Assembly (NCBI GenBank): GCA_030524545.1 | Contig: JAUNGM010000003.1 | Span: forward strand, 163,094-227,093 | Length of the DNA stretch: 64,000 nt | Direction of reading: 5' to 3' | Source of the DNA: Eubacteriales bacterium | GTDB taxonomy: Bacteria > Bacillota > Clostridia > Lachnospirales > Lachnospiraceae | Shown here: in pieces, positions 17,077 to 33,023 of the stretch | Numbering within the stretch: position 1 is the first letter of the stretch | How the letters are laid out: the number at the start of each line of letters is the position of its first letter | The notes under the pieces: generated by a model | Told to the model about the DNA's origin: nothing | Database searches by the model: none | What the model saw: the letters and a program-made list of their open reading frames with translations, nothing else | Program-made: the position numbers and the translations under genes

Positions 17077-17634
17077 ATGCCGAACATGACAAAATACGCA
17101 CTGGAAGCATCTCTGAAAAAGCTTTTGCTGCAAAAACCATTGGATAAGATCACGATCAATGACCTGACAACGGACTGCGGCATCAGCCGTATGGCATTTT
17201 ATTATCATTTTAAGGATATTTATGACCTGACGGAATGGGTATGTATGGAGGATGCCTCAAGGGCATTGCAGGGAAAGAAGACATACGATAGCTGGCAGGA
17301 AGGCCTTCTTCAGATCTTTGAGGCGGTTCTGGAAAATAAGCCGTTCATTATGAATGTCTATCATTCTGTCAGCAGGGAGCAGATTGAGAATTATCTGTTT
17401 CGGCTTACCTATGATCTGATCATGGGAGTTGTGGAAGAGAAATCTGAAGAAACGGAAATCTCCGATGATGAAAAGAAATTCATTGCAGATTTTTACAAAT
17501 ACAGTTTTGTGGGAATTATGCTGGACTGGATCAAACAGGGAATGAAAGAAAACTACCGGGAGCTTACCGAAAAAATGTGTACCACATTGAAAGGAAATAT
17601 TGCAAATTCCATCCGGAATTTTGCAGATCGGTAA
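17077..17634 (+). CDS. TetR-family regulator
   Basis: A 185-residue regulator. The N-terminal helix-turn-helix is ITINDLTTDCGISRMAFYYHF, shorter in front than most TetR proteins and like the DhaS-type subgroup. The all-helical C-terminal domain would bind a ligand. It stands directly upstream of the oleate hydratase gene with a large palindrome between, so control of the hydratase by fatty acids is a fair inference. Confidence 0.85.
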   Translation: MPNMTKYALEASLKKLLLQKPLDKITINDLTTDCGISRMAFYYHFKDIYDLTEWVCMEDASRALQGKKTYDSWQEGLLQIFEAVLENKPFIMNVYHSVSREQIENYLFRLTYDLIMGVVEEKSEETEISDDEKKFIADFYKYSFVGIMLDWIKQGMKENYRELTEKMCTTLKGNIANSIRNFADR

Positions 17635-17663
17635 TGGTTTTTTATGAATAGTTTTTTTTATCA

Positions 17664-17705
17664 AAAATGGGCGGATGATAAGTTTTTTATCATTGCGCCC
17701 ATTTT
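17664..17705. promoter_or_regulatory. Long palindrome between tetR and oleate hydratase genes
   Basis: An inverted repeat of nearly 18 bp per arm: AAAATGGGCG at 17664-17673 with CGCCCATTTT at 17695-17704, and inside it GATGATAA with TTATCATT. It ends five bases before a -35 box. It may terminate the tetR transcript or be the TetR operator; its short T-tail argues against a strong terminator. Confidence 0.6.
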
Positions 17706-17710
17706 GTAAA

Positions 17711-17739
17711 TTGAAGCAAAAAGAAAACCGCGCTAAGAT
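17711..17739 (+). promoter_or_regulatory. Promoter of the oleate hydratase gene
   Basis: TTGAAG at 17711-17716 and TAAGAT at 17734-17739, spacer 17 bases, about 90 bases before the start. Confidence 0.55.
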
Positions 17740-17830
17740 AGGCACATAAAAACAACAACATGATTTCAAAAAGGTGAAATAAGAAATACTATATTTAGAT
17801 ATTTCGATTATCAGAAAGGCGGTTATCTTT

Positions 17831-19801
17831 ATGGCAAAAAAAGGTATGAAATTAGGTATGACATCAGCTCTGATCGCAGGTGCCGGAGCAGCAGCCCTTA
17901 TGGCAAAAAAATCAAAAGAAAATGAAAAACAGGCTCAGGAAAAAGCCAAAGCGGAAAAAAATGAATATCGAAATACGGAACGAGGCAAACATGCAAAGAA
18001 CAGTAAAGGCATCTATTACACCAACGGAAACTACGAAGCATTTGCCAGACCGGAAAAGCCGGAAGGCGTAGATGAAAAAAATGCCTATATCGTAGGAAGC
18101 GGCCTGGCTTCCCTGGCAGCAGCCTGCTTCCTGGTACGTGACGGACAGATGCCGGGTTCCCATATCCATATTCTTGAAGCAATGGACATTGCAGGCGGTG
18201 CCTGTGACGGTATCTTTGATCCGACACGCGGATATGTGATGCGCGGCGGAAGAGAAATGGAAAACCATTTTGAATGCCTGTGGGATCTTTTCCGCAGCAT
18301 TCCGTCCATTGAAACGCCGGGGGTTTCCGTTCTGGATGAGTATTACTGGCTCAATAAGCATGACCCTAATTATTCTTTATGCCGTGCCACAGTCAACAGA
18401 GGCCAGGATGCCCATACGGACGGCAAATTCAATCTGAGCCAGAAGGGCTGCATGGAGATTATGAAGCTTTTCATGACAAAGGATGAAGATCTGTATGACA
18501 AAACGATTGAAGATGTTTTTGACGAGGAAGTATTTAACTCTACCTTCTGGCTGTACTGGAGAACCATGTTCGCGTTTGAAAACTGGCACAGCGCTCTGGA
18601 AATGAAGCTGTACTTCCAGCGGTTTATCCATCATATAGCAGGACTTCCGGATTTCAGCGCCCTGAAATTTACCAAGTATAATCAGTATGAGTCCCTGATC
18701 CTGCCGATGCAGAAATATCTGGAGGCAGCAGGTGTTGATTTCCAGTTTAACACGGAAGTGACGAATGTTATTTTTGAATTTAAGAACGATAAAAAGATTG
18801 CCACAGCTATCGAATGCAAGGTCAAAGGCGTAGAAAAAGGCATTCTCCTTACGGAAAATGACCTGGTATTTGTCACAAACGGAAGCTGTACGGAGGGAAC
18901 CATCTACGGTGATCAGAACCACGCACCCAACGGAGATGCGGAAGTTCGCACAAGCGGATGCTGGAGTCTCTGGAAAAATATTGCGAAACAGGATCCGTCC
19001 TTCGGCCACCCGGAGAAATTCTGCTCCGATATTTCCAGGACCAACTGGGAATCTGCTACGGTAACCACGTTGGATGACAAGATCATCCCCTATATCACCA
19101 ATATCTGTAAGCGTGATCCAAAGAGCGGCAAAGTGGTGACAGGCGGTATTGTAAGCTGTCAGGATTCCAAGTGGCTTCTGAGCTGGACCATCAACCGGCA
19201 GGGGCAGTTTAAGGAGCAGGATCCGGATAAAGTCTGCGTATGGGTATATGGCTTATTTACCGATGTTCCCGGCGACTATGTAAAGAAGCCGATGAAGGAC
19301 TGTACAGGAAAAGAGATCACGGAAGAATGGCTGTACCATCTGGGCGTTCCGGCCGATCAGATTCCGGAACTGGCGGAACACAGTGCAGTGTGCGTTCCGA
19401 CGATGATGCCGTATATCACAGCATTCTTTATGCCGAGAACCAAAGGCGACCGCCCGGATGTCATTCCGGACGGATGTGTAAACTTTGCTTTCCTGGGACA
19501 GTTTGCCGAAACCCCGAGGGATACCGTATTTACAACGGAATATTCCGTTAGAACTGCAATGGAAGCAGTATACGGGCTTCTTGGCGTAGACAGAGGTGTA
19601 CCGGAAGTTTGGGGAAGCGTTTATGATATCCGCGAGCTTCTTGACAGCAGCGTGAAGCTGATGGATGGAAAATCCCCGCTGGAGATTGAGCTGCCCGGAC
19701 CGCTGAATGCACTGAAAAAACCTGTGATCCATGTGATCAAAGGAACGGTTGTGGAGAAATTATTAAGAGATCACGATGTTCTGAAAGATTATATGCTGTA
19801 A
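17831..19801 (+). CDS. ohyA: Oleate hydratase (MCRA family)
   Basis: FAD-dependent enzyme that adds water to cis-9 double bonds, e.g. oleate to 10-hydroxystearate, detoxifying unsaturated fatty acids. The 656-residue protein has the dinucleotide fold AYIVGSGLASLAAACFLV at about residues 86-103 with GGACDG, and the MRGGREMENHFECLWDLF motif typical of the family. It carries an N-terminal extension of about 75 residues with a short hydrophobic stretch (LGMTSALIAGAGAAALMA) and a Lys/Glu-rich part, perhaps for membrane contact. ATG 17831 follows AAAGGCGG. The TetR gene upstream is its likely regulator. Confidence 0.95.
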   Translation: MAKKGMKLGMTSALIAGAGAAALMAKKSKENEKQAQEKAKAEKNEYRNTERGKHAKNSKGIYYTNGNYEAFARPEKPEGVDEKNAYIVGSGLASLAAACFLVRDGQMPGSHIHILEAMDIAGGACDGIFDPTRGYVMRGGREMENHFECLWDLFRSIPSIETPGVSVLDEYYWLNKHDPNYSLCRATVNRGQDAHTDGKFNLSQKGCMEIMKLFMTKDEDLYDKTIEDVFDEEVFNSTFWLYWRTMFAFENWHSALEMKLYFQRFIHHIAGLPDFSALKFTKYNQYESLILPMQKYLEAAGVDFQFNTEVTNVIFEFKNDKKIATAIECKVKGVEKGILLTENDLVFVTNGSCTEGTIYGDQNHAPNGDAEVRTSGCWSLWKNIAKQDPSFGHPEKFCSDISRTNWESATVTTLDDKIIPYITNICKRDPKSGKVVTGGIVSCQDSKWLLSWTINRQGQFKEQDPDKVCVWVYGLFTDVPGDYVKKPMKDCTGKEITEEWLYHLGVPADQIPELAEHSAVCVPTMMPYITAFFMPRTKGDRPDVIPDGCVNFAFLGQFAETPRDTVFTTEYSVRTAMEAVYGLLGVDRGVPEVWGSVYDIRELLDSSVKLMDGKSPLEIELPGPLNALKKPVIHVIKGTVVEKLLRDHDVLKDYML

Positions 19802-20064: not shown

Positions 20065-20541
20065 ATGTTCAGAGAGATGCGGAGATGCAGGCAGCAGATG
20101 ACATCAGAGGAGTGTATTGACCTGCTGGAAAAAGGAAAGCGCGGTGTGCTGGCTGTTCTCGGAGATGAGGATTACCCTTATACGGTTCCTATGGACTATT
20201 TTTATGATAAAGCTGCCGGACAGCTCTATTTTCACAGTGCGAAGAAGGGGCATAAGCTGGATGCGGTTCAAAAACACGACAAAGTGAGCTTTTGTGTGCT
20301 GGATGAGGGATACCGGGAAAACGGCGATTGGGCATATCATTTTCACAGTGTCGTTGTATTTGGCCGCCTTCATATTGCGGATACACCGGAAGAAAATGAA
20401 GCAATTCTGAGAAAGCTGGGACTCAAATACTTTCCGGATGCGGAGTACGTGGAAAAGGAACTGCGCAAAAACGGGAAGAATGCACAGTGCCTGATTCTTT
20501 CGGCAGAGCATATTTCAGGAAAAGCGGTGTATGAGAAATAG
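20065..20541 (+). CDS. FMN-binding split-barrel protein (NimA-like)
   Basis: A 158-residue member of the pyridoxamine-phosphate-oxidase-like split-barrel family. It has the opening MTSEECIDLLEKGKRGVLAV, then PYTVPMDYFY and YFHSAKKGHKLDA, the pattern of Nim-type nitroreductase-related proteins. FMN or haem binding is likely; the natural substrate is unknown. GAGGAGG lies before ATG 20065. Confidence 0.85.
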   Translation: MFREMRRCRQQMTSEECIDLLEKGKRGVLAVLGDEDYPYTVPMDYFYDKAAGQLYFHSAKKGHKLDAVQKHDKVSFCVLDEGYRENGDWAYHFHSVVVFGRLHIADTPEENEAILRKLGLKYFPDAEYVEKELRKNGKNAQCLILSAEHISGKAVYEK

Positions 20542-20577: not shown

Positions 20578-21546
20578 ATGAAAAATAAAAAAATAAAAAT
20601 ATCAGGCATTGCCGCTGCAGCGGGCAGTATCTTTATGGGATTTGGCTGGCCCTTTTTTGAAATGATGGTTCACTGTAAAAAGAAAAAGAATCTGACCAAA
20701 AAGAAATGGTTTGGATTGGCCCATATCAGGATGAATCATCCAAGACATAAATTTGAAAAAGAATATGAAGACGGAAAGGCATGGTGCAGGGAGCAGGAGA
20801 TGCAGGACTGGTACATCAGAAGTATGGATGGCCTGCTGCTGCACGCATACTATCTGCCAGCAGAGAATGCGGAGAGGTTTGTTCTGCTAAGCCATGGATA
20901 TAAGGGCAGCGGATTCGGGGATTTTGCATATACAGCCAGGTTTCTCCATGAGCATCACTGCAGCCTTCTGTTCATTGATCAGAGATGCTGCGGAGAGAGC
21001 GAAGGAGAATACATTACCTTTGGCGCGAAGGAGCAGTATGATGTTCAGAGATGGGCGTATCATATTGCGGAAAAAAATAAGGATAAGCTTCCCATATATC
21101 TTTATGGAGAATCCATGGGAGCAGCAGCGGTTCTGATGGCATCCGGGCATTCTCTGCCGCAGGAGGTGAGAGGACTCATTGCAGACTGCGGGTTCCGGTC
21201 CATGAAAGGGCAGCTTCAGGATATTGCTGCCAACTGGTTCCGCCTGAACTGGGTGGAGCTGCTGCTGTTTCGGGTTGATCTGTTCTGCAGGATCTGCGCC
21301 GGATTCCGCATGAAAGATGCGGACACGACGATAGCCATGAAAACAAATAAAAGGCCGGTTTTGTTTTTCCATGGGATGAAGGATACTTATGTGGATCCCA
21401 GGAATTCGAGATATAACTATTCTGTGTGCAGGGCACCCAAAGAGCTTGTCATGATACCGGAGGCAAGGCATCTTTGCAGTGCATATGAAGATCCGGAACT
21501 GTACAGGGAAAAACTCTTAGGTTTCTTTAAAAAATATGATGAATAA
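20578..21546 (+). CDS. Alpha/beta hydrolase
   Basis: A 322-residue serine hydrolase. An N-terminal hydrophobic stretch (residues 9-30) may anchor it in the membrane. The fold shows the oxyanion region LLSHGYKGSG, nucleophile elbow YGESMGAAA, acid in HGMKDTYVD and the final His in EARHLCS. Members of this group act as esterases or acyl-peptide-like hydrolases; substrate unknown. It follows the split-barrel gene by 36 bases and ends in a terminator. Confidence 0.85.
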   Translation: MKNKKIKISGIAAAAGSIFMGFGWPFFEMMVHCKKKKNLTKKKWFGLAHIRMNHPRHKFEKEYEDGKAWCREQEMQDWYIRSMDGLLLHAYYLPAENAERFVLLSHGYKGSGFGDFAYTARFLHEHHCSLLFIDQRCCGESEGEYITFGAKEQYDVQRWAYHIAEKNKDKLPIYLYGESMGAAAVLMASGHSLPQEVRGLIADCGFRSMKGQLQDIAANWFRLNWVELLLFRVDLFCRICAGFRMKDADTTIAMKTNKRPVLFFHGMKDTYVDPRNSRYNYSVCRAPKELVMIPEARHLCSAYEDPELYREKLLGFFKKYDE

Positions 21547-21560
21547 GAAAAAATGATCTG

Positions 21561-21590
21561 ACGTCAGCTAAAAAAGGCTGGCGTTTTTTC
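21561..21590 (+). terminator. Intrinsic terminator
   Basis: ACGTCAGC at 21561-21568 pairs with GCTGGCGT at 21577-21584 (one G-U), then a run of T. Confidence 0.8.
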
Positions 21591-21630
21591 TTTTCCACAA
21601 TTTGTTATGTCCCGGTCAATTTCAGGTAAA

Positions 21631-21652
21631 CTGTCTGTTAAGTCTTTGACAG
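21631..21652. promoter_or_regulatory. -35 box with overlapping dyad before the condensation-domain operon
   Basis: A consensus TTGACA lies at 21646-21651 but no good -10 follows at normal spacing. CTGTC (21631-21635) and GACAG (21648-21652) form a dyad over it. A TetR-type operator for the regulator encoded at the end of this cluster is possible; this is weak. Confidence 0.3.
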
Positions 21653-21714
21653 GGTAGAAATCAAAAGGAAAATGTGTTAACGTCACAGGGAAGGAAGGAA
21701 ACAGGAGGTTATCT

Positions 21715-23100
21715 ATGAAAGAATATTATCCTTTAACAGCAGCACAGAAAATGCATTACAACTGGATCCGCAGATACAACACACAGCAGGTGTCAGGAGT
21801 CAGTGTTGTGGCATCTCTGAAATCCGCCCTTGATTTTGGCCTTTTGAAAAAATGTATTCAGTTAGAATTTGAGCGATATGGATGTATGAGGATCCGTTTT
21901 ACAAAACCTGACGAAAAAGGAGAAGTAAAGCAGTACATAGTAGAAAAAGATACCAGAGATATTCCGCTTACCGATCTGTCCGGTATGAGCCTTGCCGAAG
22001 CTGATAATCTGATGCAGCAATGGGCTTATGAGACCTTTGACGGTGATGACATCCCGATGTGTGATGTGACCATGGTAAAGCTTCCGGAGGGATATAACGG
22101 ATTTTTTATCCACATGGATCACAGGTTGATTGATTCCTGCGGTCTTGTGGTCATGATCAATGACCTGATGCAGCTTTATACGCATTATCGATTCCAATCT
22201 GCTTACCCGGAGGATCTGGCTGATTTTGAGACAGTTCTGGTCAAGGATCTGAAAAAAGCAAACAATGAGAAACGCTTTGCGAAAGACAAGAAGTTTTGGG
22301 ACGACCAGCTTGATGCTCTGGGAGAGCCGCTTTATTCCGATATCCAGGGGCCTTCCGTTCTGGAAGAGGCGAGAAAGCTCCATGGCAATGCAGACTTAAG
22401 AGCCGCAGATATTGAGATGAAGAACTTATTTGTAGAAGTGAAGGATTATGAGCTGGAGCCTGAACCGACGAAAAATCTGATGGATTTTTGTATGAATCAC
22501 CAGCTTTCCATGACAAATCTTCTGCTGCTGGGAATCCGGACATACCTGTCAAAGGTAAACCAGGGACAGGAAGACATTACGATCCAGAACTTTATTTCCA
22601 GACGGTCTACCCATGACGAGTGGACATCCGGCGGCAGCAGGACGATCATGTTCCCCTGCAGGACCGTGATTTCTCCGGAAACAGATTTTATGTCTGCAGC
22701 TTATGAGATCCAGAATGTGCAGAACCGGATTTATATGCACAGCAATTATGACCCCGCATTGATTGAGGAAGAAATGAGAAGACGCTACCATACACCGGAA
22801 CATACAACGTATGAAAGCTGCTATCTTACCTATCAGCCAATGCCGGTGAAGATGGATAATCCGCACCTGACCCATATTCCGCAGCATGCAAAATGGTTTG
22901 CCAATGGTGCGGCTACCAAGAAAATGTATTTAACCGTATCCCATACTCCGAACGGAGGGATGAATTTCTCCTTCCACTACCAGACGGCGCATTTACAGGA
23001 ACATGATATGGAACTTTTATATTACTATATGATGCGTATTCTTTTTAAAGGAATCGCAGAGCCGGATATGAGTATCGGGGAAATTATGGAACTGGTGTAA
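21715..23100 (+). CDS. Stand-alone condensation-domain protein
   Basis: A 461-residue protein of the NRPS condensation-domain superfamily with no other domain. It begins with YYPLTAAQKMHY, the usual C-domain opening. The active-site motif is DHRLIDSCG at residues 135-143: the second His (His136) and Asp (Asp140) of HHxxxDG are kept, while the first His is Asp. Such proteins join an acyl or aminoacyl thioester to an amine or alcohol. It is followed by a carrier protein and an acyl ligase gene, so it probably uses the acyl carrier as donor. The acceptor is not evident. AACAGGAGG precedes the start. Confidence 0.85.
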   Translation: MKEYYPLTAAQKMHYNWIRRYNTQQVSGVSVVASLKSALDFGLLKKCIQLEFERYGCMRIRFTKPDEKGEVKQYIVEKDTRDIPLTDLSGMSLAEADNLMQQWAYETFDGDDIPMCDVTMVKLPEGYNGFFIHMDHRLIDSCGLVVMINDLMQLYTHYRFQSAYPEDLADFETVLVKDLKKANNEKRFAKDKKFWDDQLDALGEPLYSDIQGPSVLEEARKLHGNADLRAADIEMKNLFVEVKDYELEPEPTKNLMDFCMNHQLSMTNLLLLGIRTYLSKVNQGQEDITIQNFISRRSTHDEWTSGGSRTIMFPCRTVISPETDFMSAAYEIQNVQNRIYMHSNYDPALIEEEMRRRYHTPEHTTYESCYLTYQPMPVKMDNPHLTHIPQHAKWFANGAATKKMYLTVSHTPNGGMNFSFHYQTAHLQEHDMELLYYYMMRILFKGIAEPDMSIGEIMELV

Positions 23101-23192
23101 AAGAGAATACGTTATGTTTCCGAGAAGGAACACATGGAGACAGAAAATCAGACAATAGTCAAAATAGTGAAAGATTTATGGAGGAAAAACAG

Positions 23193-23432
23193 ATGACACA
23201 GGAAATGCAGTTTAAAACAATCGTAGCACAGTATTGCAAAGTAAAGCCGGAAGATATGAAAGAGGATATGCGGTTCAGAGAAGACCTGGGATTTACATCT
23301 CTTGATTTTATGTCTTTTTTTGGAGAGTTAGAGGATACCTTTGATGTAGAGCTTGAACAGGAGGATGCGGTAAATATCCTTACCATTGCAGAGGCTCTTG
23401 ACTTACTGGAAAAACTGCAGCAGGAGGCGTAG
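23193..23432 (+). CDS. Stand-alone acyl/peptidyl carrier protein
   Basis: A 79-residue four-helix carrier protein. Ser36 in DLGFTSLDFM is the phosphopantetheine site. ATG 23193 is chosen because GGAGG at 23180-23184 lies before it; ATG 23178 would leave that site inside the gene. It needs a phosphopantetheinyl transferase from elsewhere. Its position between condensation and ligase genes marks it as the shared thioester carrier of the set rather than the fatty-acid synthase ACP. Confidence 0.9.
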   Translation: MTQEMQFKTIVAQYCKVKPEDMKEDMRFREDLGFTSLDFMSFFGELEDTFDVELEQEDAVNILTIAEALDLLEKLQQEA

Positions 23433-23439
23433 GAAAAAT

Positions 23440-25002
23440 ATGGAAGTGCTTATTCGTGATATTTTAGAGGAAAGCGAAAAGAGATATTCGGAAATTACGG
23501 CTGTAAAGTGGCTGAAAAAGAAGGAGATTCTTGAGAGAAGCTACCGTGAACTGATGGAAAATGTCAAATCTGTCAGAAAGGGACTGCGTGCAGAAGGTTT
23601 TGAAGGAAAACATATTGCCCTGATCGGAACCAGCTCCGTGGAGTGGATGGAGAGCTACCTGGGAATCATTACAGGAAATACGGTCGCTGTGCCGCTGGAC
23701 GCAGGACTTCCGGGAGAGGATCTGATTGACCTCATCAACCGTTCCGATGCTGAAGCGCTCTTTTTAAGCCCGAAGAACCAGGCGCTTTTGGATGGAATTT
23801 TGGAAGCCTGTCCAAAGCTTCGAAAAATCTGGATGCTTCAGGAGGAAGAACCGGAAACTTCAGAAGAAAGAGCAGCGTCTCTGGCAGACCTGAAAAATGC
23901 ATCGAAAAACTGTCCGGCGGATTCCGGCAGACCATCCCCGGATGATGTGGCAACCATTATTTTTACCTCAGGAACAACCGGAAAAAGCAAGGGTGTTATG
24001 CTGACCCAGAACAATCTTGCATCCAATGTGAAAGCGGTTGATTTTACATTAGAGCCAGGAAGTATCGTGCTCAGTGTACTTCCCATTCATCATGCGTTCT
24101 GTCTGGTGATGGACTGGCTGAAAGGATTTTCCCTGGGAGCGACACTGTGTATCAATGATTCACTCCTGCATATGGTGAGAAATATGAGTGTATTCAAGCC
24201 GGATATCATGCTGATGGTTCCTCTGATGATCGAAACCATTTATAAGAGACTTGCCGGCGCAGACCCTGCAATTCCGAAAAAAGCACTGGCAGCTCATGTA
24301 TTTGGAGGAAATCTGAAGATCATCTTTACAGGCGGAGCCCATCTGGATCCCTATTATATCGATAAATTTGCGGAATACGGAGTGGATGTCCTGGAGGGAT
24401 ACGGCATGTCAGAGTGTTCTCCGGTGATCAGTTCCAATACGCCGGAAGATCATAAGGCAGGTTCCATCGGAAGACCTCTTTCCAATGTGGAAATTGCGTT
24501 TGAAAACGGAGAGATTCTGGTCAGAGGCAGCAGCGTGATGAAAGGATATTACCATATGCCTGAGGAAACAGAAGAAACACTTCGCGGCGGATGGCTTCAT
24601 ACAGGCGACAAGGGATACCTGGATGAAGATGGATTCCTGTTTATCAACGGAAGGGTAAAGAATCTGATCATCCTTTCTAATGGAGAGAATATCTCACCTG
24701 AAGAAATTGAAAATAAACTGGCATTAGGCGCACTGGTAGGCGAAGTGATCGTTACAGGCGAGAATAACGGGCTTACTGCAAGAATTTATCCGGATCAGGA
24801 TGTGGTTCAGGCAAAGGGCCTGTCCGAAGAAGAAATCCGGACAGCACTGCAGGCGTTTCTGGATCAATATAATAAGTCCCAGCCTACGTACCGTCAGATT
24901 ACAGGGCTGGTAGTGCGGAAAAATCCGTTCATCAGAAATTCCACAAAGAAGATTAAACGGCAGGACGCTTTGATTGATGAAGCTGTGCTCCCTACAGCAT
25001 AA
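23440..25002 (+). CDS. Acyl-AMP ligase / acyl-CoA synthetase-like adenylating enzyme
   Basis: A 520-residue ANL-superfamily enzyme. Motifs: P-loop IIFTSGTTGKSKGVMLTQ, GYGMSECSPVIS, HTGDKGYLDEDG, GRVKNLIILSNGENISPEEIE and the C-terminal catalytic lysine in NSTKKIKRQD. It resembles long-chain acyl-CoA synthetases more than amino-acid A domains, so the likely job is loading a fatty or other carboxylic acid onto the adjacent carrier. ATG 23440 lies in the correct frame with AGGAGGCG upstream. Its end overlaps the convergent TetR gene by 11 bases. Confidence 0.9.
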   Translation: MEVLIRDILEESEKRYSEITAVKWLKKKEILERSYRELMENVKSVRKGLRAEGFEGKHIALIGTSSVEWMESYLGIITGNTVAVPLDAGLPGEDLIDLINRSDAEALFLSPKNQALLDGILEACPKLRKIWMLQEEEPETSEERAASLADLKNASKNCPADSGRPSPDDVATIIFTSGTTGKSKGVMLTQNNLASNVKAVDFTLEPGSIVLSVLPIHHAFCLVMDWLKGFSLGATLCINDSLLHMVRNMSVFKPDIMLMVPLMIETIYKRLAGADPAIPKKALAAHVFGGNLKIIFTGGAHLDPYYIDKFAEYGVDVLEGYGMSECSPVISSNTPEDHKAGSIGRPLSNVEIAFENGEILVRGSSVMKGYYHMPEETEETLRGGWLHTGDKGYLDEDGFLFINGRVKNLIILSNGENISPEEIENKLALGALVGEVIVTGENNGLTARIYPDQDVVQAKGLSEEEIRTALQAFLDQYNKSQPTYRQITGLVVRKNPFIRNSTKKIKRQDALIDEAVLPTA

Positions 25003-25570
25003 AAGGGAGCACACCGGCGATAAAGGCCTGCGTCAGAATGTCGGCAATGACTTCTGTGGGAACCTGGAAATTTTCCCGGGTCCATTTGTGCAGTACACCG
25101 ATGGTGCTGCCGATCGTAGAGGCGATCATATAGGAAAACTCCACTTTATTGGGATGGGAAGGTTCCGTATTGTGCGTAACCTTTGTTACATAGCGGTGGA
25201 GCATGGTGATTGTTTTCTCAAAAAATGCATCCCCTCTTGGATTGCTGAGAAGATTGGCTAAAAATGGATTCGTCCTGGTATAGTTACAGATCGCAAGAAA
25301 ATAGGATCTGCACATATCCCGGTCATTTTTTGGATGGAAGGTCTCCATGAGGGAGAAGATATCATGAATGGTCTTGTCCTCAATAGCAGTGATAAGGGCT
25401 GGAATGTTTTCGTAGTGATTGTAAAATGTACTGCGTACCACTCCGGCCTTTTTTATGACATCGGATACCGTTATTTTATCTAATTCTTTTTCTTTCAGGA
25501 GTAAAAAAAACGCATCATAGATGGCTTCATCGGCGATATGATATCTCTCATCCTGTATTTCATGATTCAT
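24992..25570 (-). CDS. TetR-family regulator beside the condensation cluster
   Basis: A 192-residue regulator with N-terminal helix-turn-helix ITVSDVIKKAGVVRSTFYNHY. The helical C-terminal part is a ligand-binding type seen in Clostridia. It converges on the acyl-ligase gene (11-base overlap) and lies 20 bases downstream of the AraC gene on the same strand, so it may be co-transcribed with araC. Control of the condensation cluster is an inference from position. AAGGAG precedes the start. Confidence 0.85.
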   Translation of the reverse strand: MNHEIQDERYHIADEAIYDAFFLLLKEKELDKITVSDVIKKAGVVRSTFYNHYENIPALITAIEDKTIHDIFSLMETFHPKNDRDMCRSYFLAICNYTRTNPFLANLLSNPRGDAFFEKTITMLHRYVTKVTHNTEPSHPNKVEFSYMIASTIGSTIGVLHKWTRENFQVPTEVIADILTQAFIAGVLPFML

Positions 25571-25590: not shown

Positions 25591-26460
25591 TTATTCATTC
25601 TTTTGCCCTTGCCGGATCCATTTCCGGTATTCAGAAGGCGACATTCCTTTCTGTTTCTTAAAAATCCTGCTGAAATACAGAGGATTATCATAACCTACAA
25701 TGCTGCTGATCTCCGTTACATTATATTCGGTTACATCCAGAAGACTCTGTGCATTGGAAATCCTCAGGGAGAGAATATATTGCATGGGTGTGAATCCTGT
25801 ATACTCCTTAAAGCCCCGTATGAACCAACTGGTACTCATATGTCTGGAAGCAGCATATTGCTCGATGCTGATCTCTTTATTGTAATTCTCATTAAAAAAT
25901 GTAACAGCACTGTCAATCTCATCTTTGAGATAAGAATTTTCTGTTTTCCGAATACTGCCCAACTGCCTGTGAATGAGAATCAGAATCTGGCGCAGGAGGA
26001 GAACAAGAAGCTCCTGATAATCTTCTCTGCACATCTGCAGCTCCCGTATCATCTGGCGGAACAGATTCCGGTATTCCAGAGAAGCACCGCTGTAAAACAC
26101 GCGGGTGGAATCGGAAATGCCATATTGCCGTAAGATATTTTTTACATTGCTTCCGGTAAAATGCACCCAGTAGACCTCTGTCTGATCCGTACCGTAATAT
26201 ACATATTTTTGAACTTCTTTTGGTCTGTAGATGACCATATATCCGGCAGGGACGATTTCTTCCCTGTCATTAAAAAAGAAGTGGGCTTTTCCTGCGGCAA
26301 TATAAAGCAGCTGATAGTCAATTCTTCCATGAGGCCTGTAGGTGGGGAGTTTGGGACGGGTATACAACCGGTAAGTTCCGCAGCTTCCCACGATCAGAGG
26401 CTTGCTTTTGTCTTTAAAATCAATTTTTGAGTGATTCAGGTATGCTGAATTGATATACAT
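25591..26460 (-). CDS. AraC-family regulator of the beta-galactosidase operon
   Basis: A 289-residue activator. The N-terminal cupin-like sugar-sensing domain (PHGRIDYQLLYIAAGKAHFFF) is followed by two helix-turn-helices from about residue 190: ISIEQYAASRHMSTSWFIRGF and VTEISSIVGYDNPLYFSRIF. It is divergent from the GH2 gene, a standard arrangement for local control by the sugar. Confidence 0.9.
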   Translation of the reverse strand: MYINSAYLNHSKIDFKDKSKPLIVGSCGTYRLYTRPKLPTYRPHGRIDYQLLYIAAGKAHFFFNDREEIVPAGYMVIYRPKEVQKYVYYGTDQTEVYWVHFTGSNVKNILRQYGISDSTRVFYSGASLEYRNLFRQMIRELQMCREDYQELLVLLLRQILILIHRQLGSIRKTENSYLKDEIDSAVTFFNENYNKEISIEQYAASRHMSTSWFIRGFKEYTGFTPMQYILSLRISNAQSLLDVTEYNVTEISSIVGYDNPLYFSRIFKKQKGMSPSEYRKWIRQGQKNE

Positions 26461-26587
26461 GCATCATCCCTCCCCGCAGTTGTGCAATCCACGATTATTA
26501 AAAAGGTATTATATAAGATACACGGATTTCTTTTGAATATACAACAATATTCTATCATTTTGTGCATGTTTTGTCTAATGGAGTTTA

Positions 26588-26616
26588 TGGAAGTTCAGGG
26601 GCGGTTTGAGTATAAT
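26588..26616 (+). promoter_or_regulatory. Activator-type promoter of the GH2 gene
   Basis: TATAAT at 26611-26616 with a poor -35 (TGGAAG, 26588-26593) at 17 bases. A weak -35 is what one expects where an AraC protein must activate. Confidence 0.45.
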
Positions 26617-26634
26617 CTTCTTATAAAAATGTAA

Positions 26635-29724
<3,090 letters not shown>

Positions 29725-29738
29725 AAGAAGGAGAAATA

Positions 29739-31100
29739 ATGGAAGAAAAAAAATATTTAAAGTGGTATAACAAAGTAGGGTATGGTTCCGGGGATATTGC
29801 AGGCAATGTAGTGTATGCGTTTTTGTCTTCCTTTGTTATGATCTTCCTGACAGATACGGTAGGACTGAATGCCGGAGTTGTAGGAACGCTGATGATGTTT
29901 TCCAAGCTGTTTGACGGCGTTACGGATATCTTTTTCGGTTCCATGATCGATAAGACAAAGAGTAAGATGGGAAAAGCACGTCCGTGGATGCTTTGGGCTT
30001 ACTTTGGATGTGCGGCAATGATCATAGCGATCTTTGCAATCCCTGTGGATCTTGGAGAAACGGCAAAGTATGCCTGGTTTTTCATCGCCTATACAGCACT
30101 GAACGCTGTGTTCTATACGGCGAATAATATTGCATATTCTGCACTGACCTCCCTGATCACCAAAAACAGCAGTGAGCGTGTGCAGATGGGTTCTATCCGG
30201 TTTATGTTTGCGTTCGGCACGAGCCTGCTTATCCAGACGATCACCGTAGATGCCGTAAAAATAATGGGCGGCGGTGCCAGAGGATGGAGAACTGTTGCGG
30301 TCATTTATGCTGTGATCGGCCTGATTGTCAATACAATCTCTGCTCTGTCCGTAAAAGAGCTTTCTTCTGCGGAACTGGAAGAGACAAATTCTTCCAAAGA
30401 GACCGAAGAGAAATACAGTTTAAAAGATGCGGTAAAACTGCTTGCAGCAAATAAATATTATATGATGATCTGCGGTATCTACATTTTGATGCAGATTTTT
30501 ACCGCAACATTAAATATGGGCATTTACTTCATGACCTATATTCTGGGAAATGCTTCCCTGCTCGGCGTATTTTCCATGGCGGTCAATATTCCGCTGATCT
30601 GCGGACTGGTATTTACGCCTATGCTTGTGAAAAAATTTCGCGGTATGTATAAAATTAATCTGGCGGGATATGCATTGGCAACTGTGGCACGCGGACTTGT
30701 GATCGTCGCAGGATATATGGGGAATCTGCCGCTGATGCTGCTGTTTACCGGAGCTGCATCTATTGGCATGAGCCCGCTGCAGGGAGATCTGAACGCATTG
30801 ATCGCGTCCTGCTCCGAGTATACTTTTCTTACAAAAAAGAAAAGAATTGACGGTACCATGTTTTCCTGTACCTCCCTCGGTGTGAAGATCGGCGGCGGTA
30901 TTGGTACGGCACTGGCCGGATGGCTCCTGGCAGCCAGCGGATATGTGGCAAATGCTGCAGAGCAGGTGCCGTCCTGCATCAATATGCTCTATTTCATGTA
31001 CCTGTGGATTCCAATGATCATTAACCTTATTATTACAGTAGTACTTTCCCGGCTGAAAGTAGAGCAGGCAAATGAAAGGATAGAAGGTAACCGCGTATAA
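29739..31100 (+). CDS. GPH-family sugar:cation symporter
   Basis: A 453-residue membrane protein of the glycoside-pentoside-hexuronide family (MelB/LacS-like), with twelve hydrophobic segments. Family features are YGSGDIAGNVVYAF near the start and the loop DKTKSKMGKARPWMLW. It would import the galactoside hydrolysed by the GH2 enzyme encoded upstream. AGAAGGAG precedes the start. Confidence 0.93.
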   Translation: MEEKKYLKWYNKVGYGSGDIAGNVVYAFLSSFVMIFLTDTVGLNAGVVGTLMMFSKLFDGVTDIFFGSMIDKTKSKMGKARPWMLWAYFGCAAMIIAIFAIPVDLGETAKYAWFFIAYTALNAVFYTANNIAYSALTSLITKNSSERVQMGSIRFMFAFGTSLLIQTITVDAVKIMGGGARGWRTVAVIYAVIGLIVNTISALSVKELSSAELEETNSSKETEEKYSLKDAVKLLAANKYYMMICGIYILMQIFTATLNMGIYFMTYILGNASLLGVFSMAVNIPLICGLVFTPMLVKKFRGMYKINLAGYALATVARGLVIVAGYMGNLPLMLLFTGAASIGMSPLQGDLNALIASCSEYTFLTKKKRIDGTMFSCTSLGVKIGGGIGTALAGWLLAASGYVANAAEQVPSCINMLYFMYLWIPMIINLIITVVLSRLKVEQANERIEGNRV

Positions 31101-31216
31101 AAGAAACTCAAGAAACATTGTCAAATCGAAAAAATCACATAGACAGGTTTGATTCTATGAGGTATCCTATTATTTATGAAAGAGAACGGATTTATGCTGA
31201 TATCAGGAGGAGCCAC

Positions 31217-32317
31217 ATGGAGAGAAATCAGATCTATATCAAATGCGGAACCAATTATAAAGAAATGACAAAGGAACTTTTAGAGGAGTGCGGTCTGGCA
31301 GAGCTTATTGGCAGCCGCGGAAGACGGATCGGCATCAAGCCGAACCTCGTCTCCCCTACGGTGGCTTCTTACGGCGGCACCACCCATCCGGAAGTAGTGG
31401 CAGGTATCCTGGAATATCTTCAGGACTATGGATTTACGCATCTGACGATGATGGAAGGGTCCTGGGTGGGGGACAGAACCCCAGAGGCGTACGAGGTGTG
31501 CGGATACAGAGAATTGTCAGAAAAATACGGGGTTCCTTTTATTGATACTCAAAAGGAAAAGTCTGTTTCCAGAGACTGCGGCGGAATGAAACTGAACCTC
31601 TGTGCATGTGTGGAAGCCGTGGACTTTTTGATCAATGTTCCTGTGCTGAAAGGACACTGTCAGACGAAGATTACCTGCGCGCTGAAAAATATGAAGGGAC
31701 TGATTCCAAATTCTGAGAAACGGCGTTTTCATTCTATGGGACTCCACAAACCGATTGCTCATCTGGGAACGGGTATCCGACAGGATTTCATTGTGGTGGA
31801 TAATATCTGCGGGGATCTGGATTTTGAAGACGGTGGACACCCGGTGGTGATGAACCGGATTCTGGCCGGAAGGGATCCGGTGCTGATCGATGCCTATGTC
31901 TGCCACATGATGCACTATGATGTATCGGAAGTTGCTTATGTAACAATGGCGGAAGCGCTTGGTGTGGGATGTGCGGATATTTCCTGTGCAGATATCCGTA
32001 TCTGCGGCGGGGAAGGCGGGGCACAGATGCCAAAATCCCGCAAGATCGTGGAACTTCAGGATGCGGTAGAAGAGGTGGAGTCCTGCAGTGCATGTTACGG
32101 ATACCTGATTCCTGCACTGGATATGCTGCGGGAAGAGGGACTTTTTGAAAAGCTTGGTGAGAAAATCTGCATTGGTCAGGGATGGCGGGAGAAAACAGGG
32201 GAACTTGGCGTTGGGCATTGTACCGGGAAATTTCGCTGCCATCTGGACGGGTGCCCGCCTACGGAAGAACAGATTTATGAATTCTTAAAAGAATATATAA
32301 AGGATCATCAGAATTAA
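31217..32317 (+). CDS. DUF362-domain protein
   Basis: A 366-residue protein of the DUF362 family. The fold is marked by IGIKPNLVSPTVASYGGTTH, MMEGSWVGDRT, NVPVLKGHCQTKITCALKNM and GRDPVLIDAY. C-terminal cysteines (CSACYGYL, CTGKFRCHLDGC) may hold a cluster. Function is unknown for the family. ATG 31217 follows CAGGAGGAG; the longer frame from 31118 lacks such a site. It ends at a bidirectional terminator. Confidence 0.85.
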   Translation: MERNQIYIKCGTNYKEMTKELLEECGLAELIGSRGRRIGIKPNLVSPTVASYGGTTHPEVVAGILEYLQDYGFTHLTMMEGSWVGDRTPEAYEVCGYRELSEKYGVPFIDTQKEKSVSRDCGGMKLNLCACVEAVDFLINVPVLKGHCQTKITCALKNMKGLIPNSEKRRFHSMGLHKPIAHLGTGIRQDFIVVDNICGDLDFEDGGHPVVMNRILAGRDPVLIDAYVCHMMHYDVSEVAYVTMAEALGVGCADISCADIRICGGEGGAQMPKSRKIVELQDAVEEVESCSACYGYLIPALDMLREEGLFEKLGEKICIGQGWREKTGELGVGHCTGKFRCHLDGCPPTEEQIYEFLKEYIKDHQN

Positions 32318-32385: not shown

Positions 32386-32973
32386 TTACAGGCTGCATTT
32401 GATGATATTGATGATCTGTTCTTTGCTGAAGCGGCTGCTGTTCAGGCAGAGGTCATACTGATGCAGGTCTGTCCATTTGGTATCTGTGAAATATTCATAG
32501 TATGCACGGCGCTCTTTGTCCATGCGCTTTACCAGCTTGCGGGCACTTTTTTCTTCTCTGCCGGTACGTTCCATTACATTCTTTACCCGATCCTCAAAGG
32601 GAGCATAGATGAAAACACTCAGGGTTTTGTTTTTCAGAATATGGTTGGCACAGCGGCCGACGATCACGCAGTCCTCTTTTTCAGAAAGGGAAAGAATGAT
32701 TTTGCGCTGAAGCTCAAACAGGACATCATTCATAGGAATAAAATGATATTCCGGATTCATCTGAGCCTCGTGGTCTACGGGGAAAAGCCACTGATTGGCT
32801 TTCTTTTCATCTACTTTGGCAAGTTCGCCAAAAGGAATCTTTTTTTCTTTGCTTGCCAGCTCGATCAGTTCTTTGTCATAAAACTGAATTTCCAGTTCCT
32901 CAGCAAGCGATTTTCCGATAACACGTCCGCCGCTTCCGAACATCCGGTTAATGGTAATAATGCGTTTACTCAT
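32386..32973 (-). CDS. Cytidylate kinase-like protein
   Basis: A 195-residue P-loop protein of the cytidylate-kinase-like family. It opens ITINRMFGSGGRVIGKSLAEEL, where the usual Walker A is altered to GSGGRVIG, then IVGRCANHIL. The target is not CMP with certainty; many Clostridia carry such paralogues of unknown role. ATG 32973 follows AAGGAGG; eight more residues upstream are possible. Confidence 0.8.
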   Translation of the reverse strand: MSKRIITINRMFGSGGRVIGKSLAEELEIQFYDKELIELASKEKKIPFGELAKVDEKKANQWLFPVDHEAQMNPEYHFIPMNDVLFELQRKIILSLSEKEDCVIVGRCANHILKNKTLSVFIYAPFEDRVKNVMERTGREEKSARKLVKRMDKERRAYYEYFTDTKWTDLHQYDLCLNSSRFSKEQIINIIKCSL

Positions 32974-33023
32974 AATAGTTCCTCCTTTCCTGGACATCAG
33001 TTTTAGAATAAATGTATAATACT

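Follow-up and report, generated by a model that had tools for sequence, protein, structure and literature searches.

What product does a bacterium make with one condensation protein, one carrier protein and one adenylating enzyme, each encoded by a gene of its own? The question is raised by three consecutive plus-strand genes, here C, T and A, in a 64,000-nucleotide stretch of a Lachnospiraceae genome (Eubacteriales bacterium, assembly GCA_030524545.1, contig JAUNGM010000003.1, positions 163,094 to 227,093 of the forward strand), the whole of which we call the window. A sequence-only reading had proposed that a fatty acid, loaded onto the carrier by the ligase, is handed by the condensation protein to a free amine or alcohol. 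We find that the trio is very probably a fatty acid amide operon of a Blautia species, of the kind named CTA, which conjugates fatty acids to a small free amine. The C-T-A system as such is already in print; the new leads, which go beyond those parts of the papers compared here, are a hydrolase partner and an 87-bp element upstream of C.

The C, T and A genes and their relatives

Pfam matches and coordinates confirmed the trio and a convergent TetR gene, both as first described. C (21715 to 23100, plus strand) encodes a stand-alone condensation protein of 461 amino acids with the motif DHRLIDSCG, which covers the Pfam Condensation profile (PF00668) almost end to end (E 1.5e-35). T (23193 to 23432, plus strand) encodes an acyl carrier protein (ACP; PF00550, PP-binding, E 2.9e-11), whose carrier serine is residue 36, the number originally given, if translation starts at ATG 23193, which has GGAGG upstream, and residue 41 if it starts at the alternative ATG 23178. 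A (23440 to 25002, plus strand) encodes a fatty-acid-type adenylating enzyme of 520 amino acids that matches PF00501 (AMP-binding, E 1.3e-65) and AMP-binding_C_3, and whose best NCBIfam match is a long-chain-fatty-acid--CoA ligase model (E 3.1e-79, under the curated cut-off). All three are open frames with a GGAGG-type ribosome-binding site in front. The regulator gene (24992 to 25570, minus strand; TetR_C_8, E 1.3e-7, and TetR_N) shares 11 bp with the 3′ end of A.

The trio is not a canonical nonribosomal peptide synthetase (NRPS) module: A scores 266.6 bits against an acyl-CoA ligase model and 135.9 bits against an amino-acid adenylation model, which upholds the earlier statement that no amino-acid A domain is present, and C is the sole PF00668 match in the whole genome at E ≤ 0.001. 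A search with A found one other place in this genome, at 30% identity, and PF01648 (phosphopantetheinyl transferase) has one match there. No second condensation-like stretch was found in any of the 172 loci with C that we examined (80 of them named, 49 of these with 3 kb or more to each side), nor in particular in the 11 named loci that hold some open frame of at least 900 codons; the trio is therefore, within the loci viewed, not a piece of a larger NRPS, and the fear that it might be such a fragment was not borne out. Counts on named loci, here and below, rest on the best 80 of 148.

C matches PDB 12KH, the OaaC protein of Coprococcus eutactus, over its full length (E 8.4e-189; 56% identity), while the next PDB chains, from the NRPS PvdL, reach only about 4e-4. 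In a 51-row tree whose references were OaaC and four Lachnospiraceae NRPS C domains, with starter, LCL and other reference classes left out, the window C, OaaC and the C of Blautia wexlerae share one group (18 rows, fork 100/98), and the four NRPS domains fall outside it (fork 100/100). A grouping with inactive domains, the other outcome envisaged, did not appear, as C groups with active OaaC. The suggestion that the Asp in place of the first active-site His marks a subclass was correct and has been published already: it is the (D/H)HxxxDS motif of the C-FAA clade, which is nearest to starter domains (PMC13142362). Among 141 distinct proteins kept for a motif census, the close C lineage of at least 55% identity, here clade I, has DHxxxDS in 104 of 105 proteins and DHxxxDA in one, whereas the 33 proteins at 30-55% identity comprise 31 with DA (D, H or N first) and two with DS, in agreement with the Ser/Ala split already published.

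The preprint PMC13142362 describes sets of free-standing A, ACP and C in gut Clostridia as fatty acid amide pathways and credits their discovery to Chang et al. 2021; the likeness of the 2021 clusters to the window, as conveyed there, lies in the type of pathway. According to the parts of this preprint compared, the C domains of such pathways carry DHxxxDS, use free amines as acceptors and exclude amino acids. OaaA, OaaACP and OaaC of C. eutactus were reconstituted in vitro, OaaC was assayed with 5-aminovalerate and gamma-aminobutyrate (GABA), and its homodimer was opened by holo- or acyl-ACP, as shown for OaaC only. A second preprint (PMC13060934), likewise compared in part, names the same three genes the CTA operon and counts 36 Lachnospiraceae species that carry it. 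CTA+ Blautia produced the N-acylethanolamines OEA, PEA and LEA at higher levels than CTA- species did, and oleoyl dopamine formed in CTA-carrying Blautia. Some amines protected B. wexlerae against oleic or linoleic acid, and neither of the two amides tested was toxic.

The window shares the hallmarks of these operons, namely free-standing C, T and A in one row with T in the middle, a DHxxxDS-type motif with the second His kept, and a C that joins OaaC in the tree. The locus L097 of B. wexlerae, for which both the operon and N-acyl amine production are reported, belongs to the same genus and has the same gene order, the hydrolase upstream, the TetR gene downstream and the upstream element; identities are 84% over 462 residues for C, 68% over 76 for T, 79% over 513 for A, 63% for the hydrolase and 62% for TetR. 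With L097 standing in for the reference of PMC13060934, C and A both exceed the 70% identity over 80% given in the portion compared. L097 differs in being of another species and in lacking, near C, the oleate hydratase and Nim-like genes of the window. The OaaC system also has a stand-alone C (DHRLxDSCG) with separate ACP and A, and the stretch of the extra helix reported for OaaC (Gln214-His224) aligns with the window C gap-free; apart from the lower identity of its C, it differs in that the parts of its paper compared mention neither a hydrolase nor TetR, nor SCP2.

The gene order recurs. T comes next after C in 76 of the 77 named loci that extend 400 bp or more downstream, L059 being the exception, and A is present in all 72 that extend 1400 bp or more; the arrangement is thus not due to chance. 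Of the 62 named loci that reach 3 kb or more downstream, 60 have a convergent TetR relative there, and an alpha/beta-hydrolase lies within 600 bp upstream of C in 55/73. In a sample of family genomes (30 loci, cut at 50% identity into 12 close and 18 more distant), T and A come after C in 12/12 and 16/18, respectively. C relatives at E ≤ 1e-10 occur in 45 of 299 family genomes; four of their 47 places sit in NRPS-size frames, and three genomes have such a place only. A C match at E ≤ 0.001 was found in 28 of 60 genomes of a genus sample, a few being fragments, and the operon is thus patchy even inside the genus. Two genomes grouped in this genus, G355 and G313, are identical over the 2400 bp checked to L097 and to L106 (Blautia luti), respectively, which places the window genome in the genus of B. 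wexlerae.

In genome G318, the hydrolase-C-T-A-TetR block lies between homologues of two window genes, 31118-32317 (DUF362) and 32386-32997 (cytidylate-kinase-like), that adjoin each other in the window 5.5 kb past the TetR gene. The five genes thus keep together in changed surroundings. AraC, beta-galactosidase and sugar-transporter genes of the major facilitator superfamily (MFS) occupy 25591-31100 in the window and separate the TetR gene from these flank genes, as if the sugar locus or the block had moved.

Several relatives of C stand apart. L014 (= L206:6441-7829) and L015 each encode a C protein that is 40-41% identical and carries DHRIMDSxG, with no T or A match immediately after it, and a molybdopterin-type oxidase gene set lies near the partnerless C in L206. 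L205 (G047) has a C at 27% identity, on a long branch and with NHMIQDSSG, beyond both main lineages by identity. C has no match in PHROGs.

A serine hydrolase beside C in two lineages

The statement that no thioesterase accompanies the trio has to be revised in view of a gene directly upstream (20578 to 21546, plus strand) for an alpha/beta-hydrolase of 322 amino acids (Pfam Hydrolase_4, E 1.2e-15), which is found beside C in many relatives. Its Ser179, Asp269 and His298 are kept in 66/66 aligned relatives, C-linked or unlinked alike, so this triad does not single out the linked hydrolases. The predicted structure (mean pLDDT 86.6) has an alpha/beta-hydrolase body and, at low confidence, an N-terminal membrane-type helix at residues 2-30; of about 1500 fold matches at E ≤ 0.001, the esterase PF2001 ranks first, followed by monoglyceride lipases.

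A strict co-occurrence of hydrolase and C, seen in hand-picked genomes (14/14 C-bearing with, 6/6 C-less without), was abandoned after the genus sample broke the rule: a hydrolase relative is present in 26 of the 28 C-bearing and in 9 of the 32 C-less genomes. Across the family, 130 of 299 genomes have a relative at E ≤ 1e-10, mostly away from C. What ties the hydrolase to C is adjacency rather than exclusive presence. Counting the window genome in both samples and leaving out five NRPS-size places, we found the hydrolase directly adjoining C at 4/12 close and 28/31 more distant places in family genomes, and at 10/13 close and 15/16 more distant places in genus genomes.

The hydrolase was probably recruited twice, from separate branches, for the two main C lineages, as judged from a tree of 66 rows: 15 from clade I (thinned from 91), 30 from the more distant lineage, clade II (36 before identical rows were merged), and 21 unlinked relatives. 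In this tree, unlinked relatives separate the two C-adjacent types, each of which forms a group of its own (100/100 and 100/98), and an approximately unbiased test rejected a single origin (p 0.0007). That value is to be read with the facts that the unlinked rows are best matches to the window hydrolase, so that close clade II-type paralogues may be missing, that loci with the hydrolase near but not directly beside C (e.g., G002 and G010) were left out, and that the deep forks are weak (88/86).

Clade II resembles the window in its C-T-A order, adjacent serine hydrolase and TetR gene. It differs in that C is only about 34-39% identical with a (D/H/N)HxxxDA motif, the hydrolase is of the other branch and its gene runs into the start of C (a 4-bp overlap in the three stretches with open reading frames listed), TetR is of another subfamily and lies upstream of the block rather than convergent and downstream, and an SCP2-like gene is an extra neighbor. 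The latter precedes the hydrolase in 10 of 11 longer clade II stretches, and a divergent TetR gene is found in nine of these 11, the two exceptions starting within 1.4 kb of the block; Pfam confirmed SCP2 in 2/2 and TetR in 3/3 cases scanned. Ala occupies the Ser position of DHxxxDS in 36% of the published C-FAA set, according to the part of PMC13142362 compared, and the published clusters therefore probably include clade II. Two ABC half-transporter genes, a possible exporter, directly follow the clade II C-T-A set in L159:2537-6179.

PMC13060934 mentions no hydrolase, lipase, esterase, TetR or SCP2, and the hydrolase partnership is absent from the titles and abstracts surveyed, a scope that excludes Chang et al. 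2021, supplements and most subscription papers.

The element upstream of C

The interval from the hydrolase gene to C contains a conserved 87-bp element (21602 to 21688, plus strand; E 1.4e-20 in the window), in which the core GTCAATTTnnnGTAAAnTGTnTGTTAAGTC is followed at almost fixed spacing by GGGGTAGAAAT. Of the 123 clade I loci that extend more than 350 bp upstream of C, 104 have the element there according to an nhmmer profile built from 32 loci, which include the window and are themselves counted; the figure is 78/93 when identical upstream stretches are merged. The element has no match elsewhere in the loci or the window at E ≤ 0.01, and none in the 41 more distant loci (below 45% identity; 33 distinct). 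Its core occurs once in the whole genome at up to three mismatches, and L097 carries the element (E 7.6e-9).

The element is probably the operon promoter, together with the putative site of the TetR protein; a clear dyad operator was not convincingly seen within the 87 bp. A known RNA element upstream of C was considered and dropped, as Rfam has none there and its two sub-threshold matches lie elsewhere. A terminator-like hairpin and T run follow the hydrolase gene (21560 to 21585, plus strand; consensus scan only), which suggests that hydrolase and C may be separate transcripts in the window; the same scan counted nine terminator-like sites in the region versus 5.0 (standard deviation 2.0) in shuffles.

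Proposed chemistry, alternatives and neighboring genes

In the pathway that we propose, A would use ATP to activate a free long-chain fatty acid, which it would load onto the phosphopantetheine arm of T. C would bind acyl-T and acylate a small free amine, and the resulting N-acyl amine would be released without a thioesterase. The amine half of the earlier transfer scheme thus stands, as it is what the portion of PMC13142362 compared reports for OaaA/OaaACP/OaaC and is consistent with CTA Blautia; its ester half found no support. The amine would be supplied from outside the cell, with which a lack of PF00282 decarboxylase matches in the window genome fits (8 of 14 control genomes do match). 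TetR and the 87-bp element may switch the operon, and the membrane-type serine hydrolase may supply fatty acids in the manner of a monoacylglycerol lipase, or serve the same lipid-handling task otherwise. The hydrolase, C, T, A and TetR genes would then form a five-gene module that conjugates fatty acids to exogenous amines.

Several points weigh against this picture. The reaction in the window strain would follow from relatives whose C is 56-84% identical, and the two supporting papers are both preprints. For B. wexlerae, the evidence is a comparison between species that carry the operon and species that lack it, with no knock-out described in the parts of PMC13060934 compared, where CTA- Blautia species also made some amide. 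The reported amines differ, 5-aminovalerate and GABA for C. eutactus versus ethanolamine and dopamine for B. wexlerae, and thus point to no one amine for the window strain; PF00282, moreover, is only one decarboxylase family. As to the hydrolase, it is not directly beside C at 8/12 (family) and 3/13 (genus) close-lineage places, and is thus not indispensable, even if three of these 11 places have a relative about 3 kb or less away on the same contig.

The condensation superfamily includes ester-forming and starter types, and the trio could in principle have a different acylated product, be it an ester, an N-acyl amino acid or the start unit of a lipopeptide for an NRPS. The placement of the amide clade nearest to starter domains (in the portion of PMC13142362 compared) would agree with this. 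We nevertheless regard it as very improbable, given the reported use of free amines and exclusion of amino acids by these C domains, the lack of any other PF00668 match in the genome, and the 172 loci with no second condensation-like stretch. A different question, which concerns the benefit rather than the chemistry and is compatible with an amide operon, is whether the cell mainly gains by detoxifying free fatty acids, signal-like amides being a by-product. Here the case is evenly balanced. The amine rescue of B. wexlerae and the harmlessness of the two amides (PMC13060934, parts compared), the patchy presence of C in the genus and an oleate hydratase gene 1.9 kb upstream of C all speak for it, but that gene is near C in 0/59 named loci with at least 3.9 kb upstream, so that the pairing is particular to the window genome.

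A more far-reaching reading, to which we give somewhat less than an even chance, is that the amide pathway is a lipid-scavenging module rather than a three-gene system. In it the membrane-type hydrolase (in clade II together with an SCP2-like lipid carrier) would have been recruited at least twice independently, and would cut glycerides of the diet or host and feed the fatty acids straight into C-T-A, with a TetR switch of its own. That it instead degrades the amides or edits acyl-T, as an amidase or thioesterase, seems unlikely: the fold is generic, and the thioesterase DcsB and peptidases appear lower among the matches, but the membrane-type helix and the PF2001 and monoglyceride lipase matches fit a lipid ester somewhat better, if weakly. 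As a partial fatty acid source, the hydrolase may be a new lead beyond the known C-T-A chemistry; with the clade II SCP2-like protein and the upstream element, it is a candidate for fatty acid supply and for a production switch, which the parts of the papers compared do not cover. According to published work, human gut receptors respond to amides made by such operons, and a full list of carrier species and of the gene set helps to predict who makes amides and when.

Among the neighboring genes scanned around the trio, no exporter was found, as first stated, apart from the sugar-type MFS gene at 29739-31100. The oleate hydratase gene (17831-19801; NCBIfam PRK13977, E 2.1e-285, above cut-off) is preceded by a TetR_C_8 gene of its own, and the pair (17077-19801) recurs in 10/10 same-genus stretches fetched (6 to 17 kb each). 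We rejected it as a general CTA partner, as none of these 10 stretches holds a C, T or A match. Between this pair and the hydrolase gene, a PPOX-type protein (20065-20541) resembles Nim nitroimidazole reductases, with 139.7 bits against a curated cut-off of 270.

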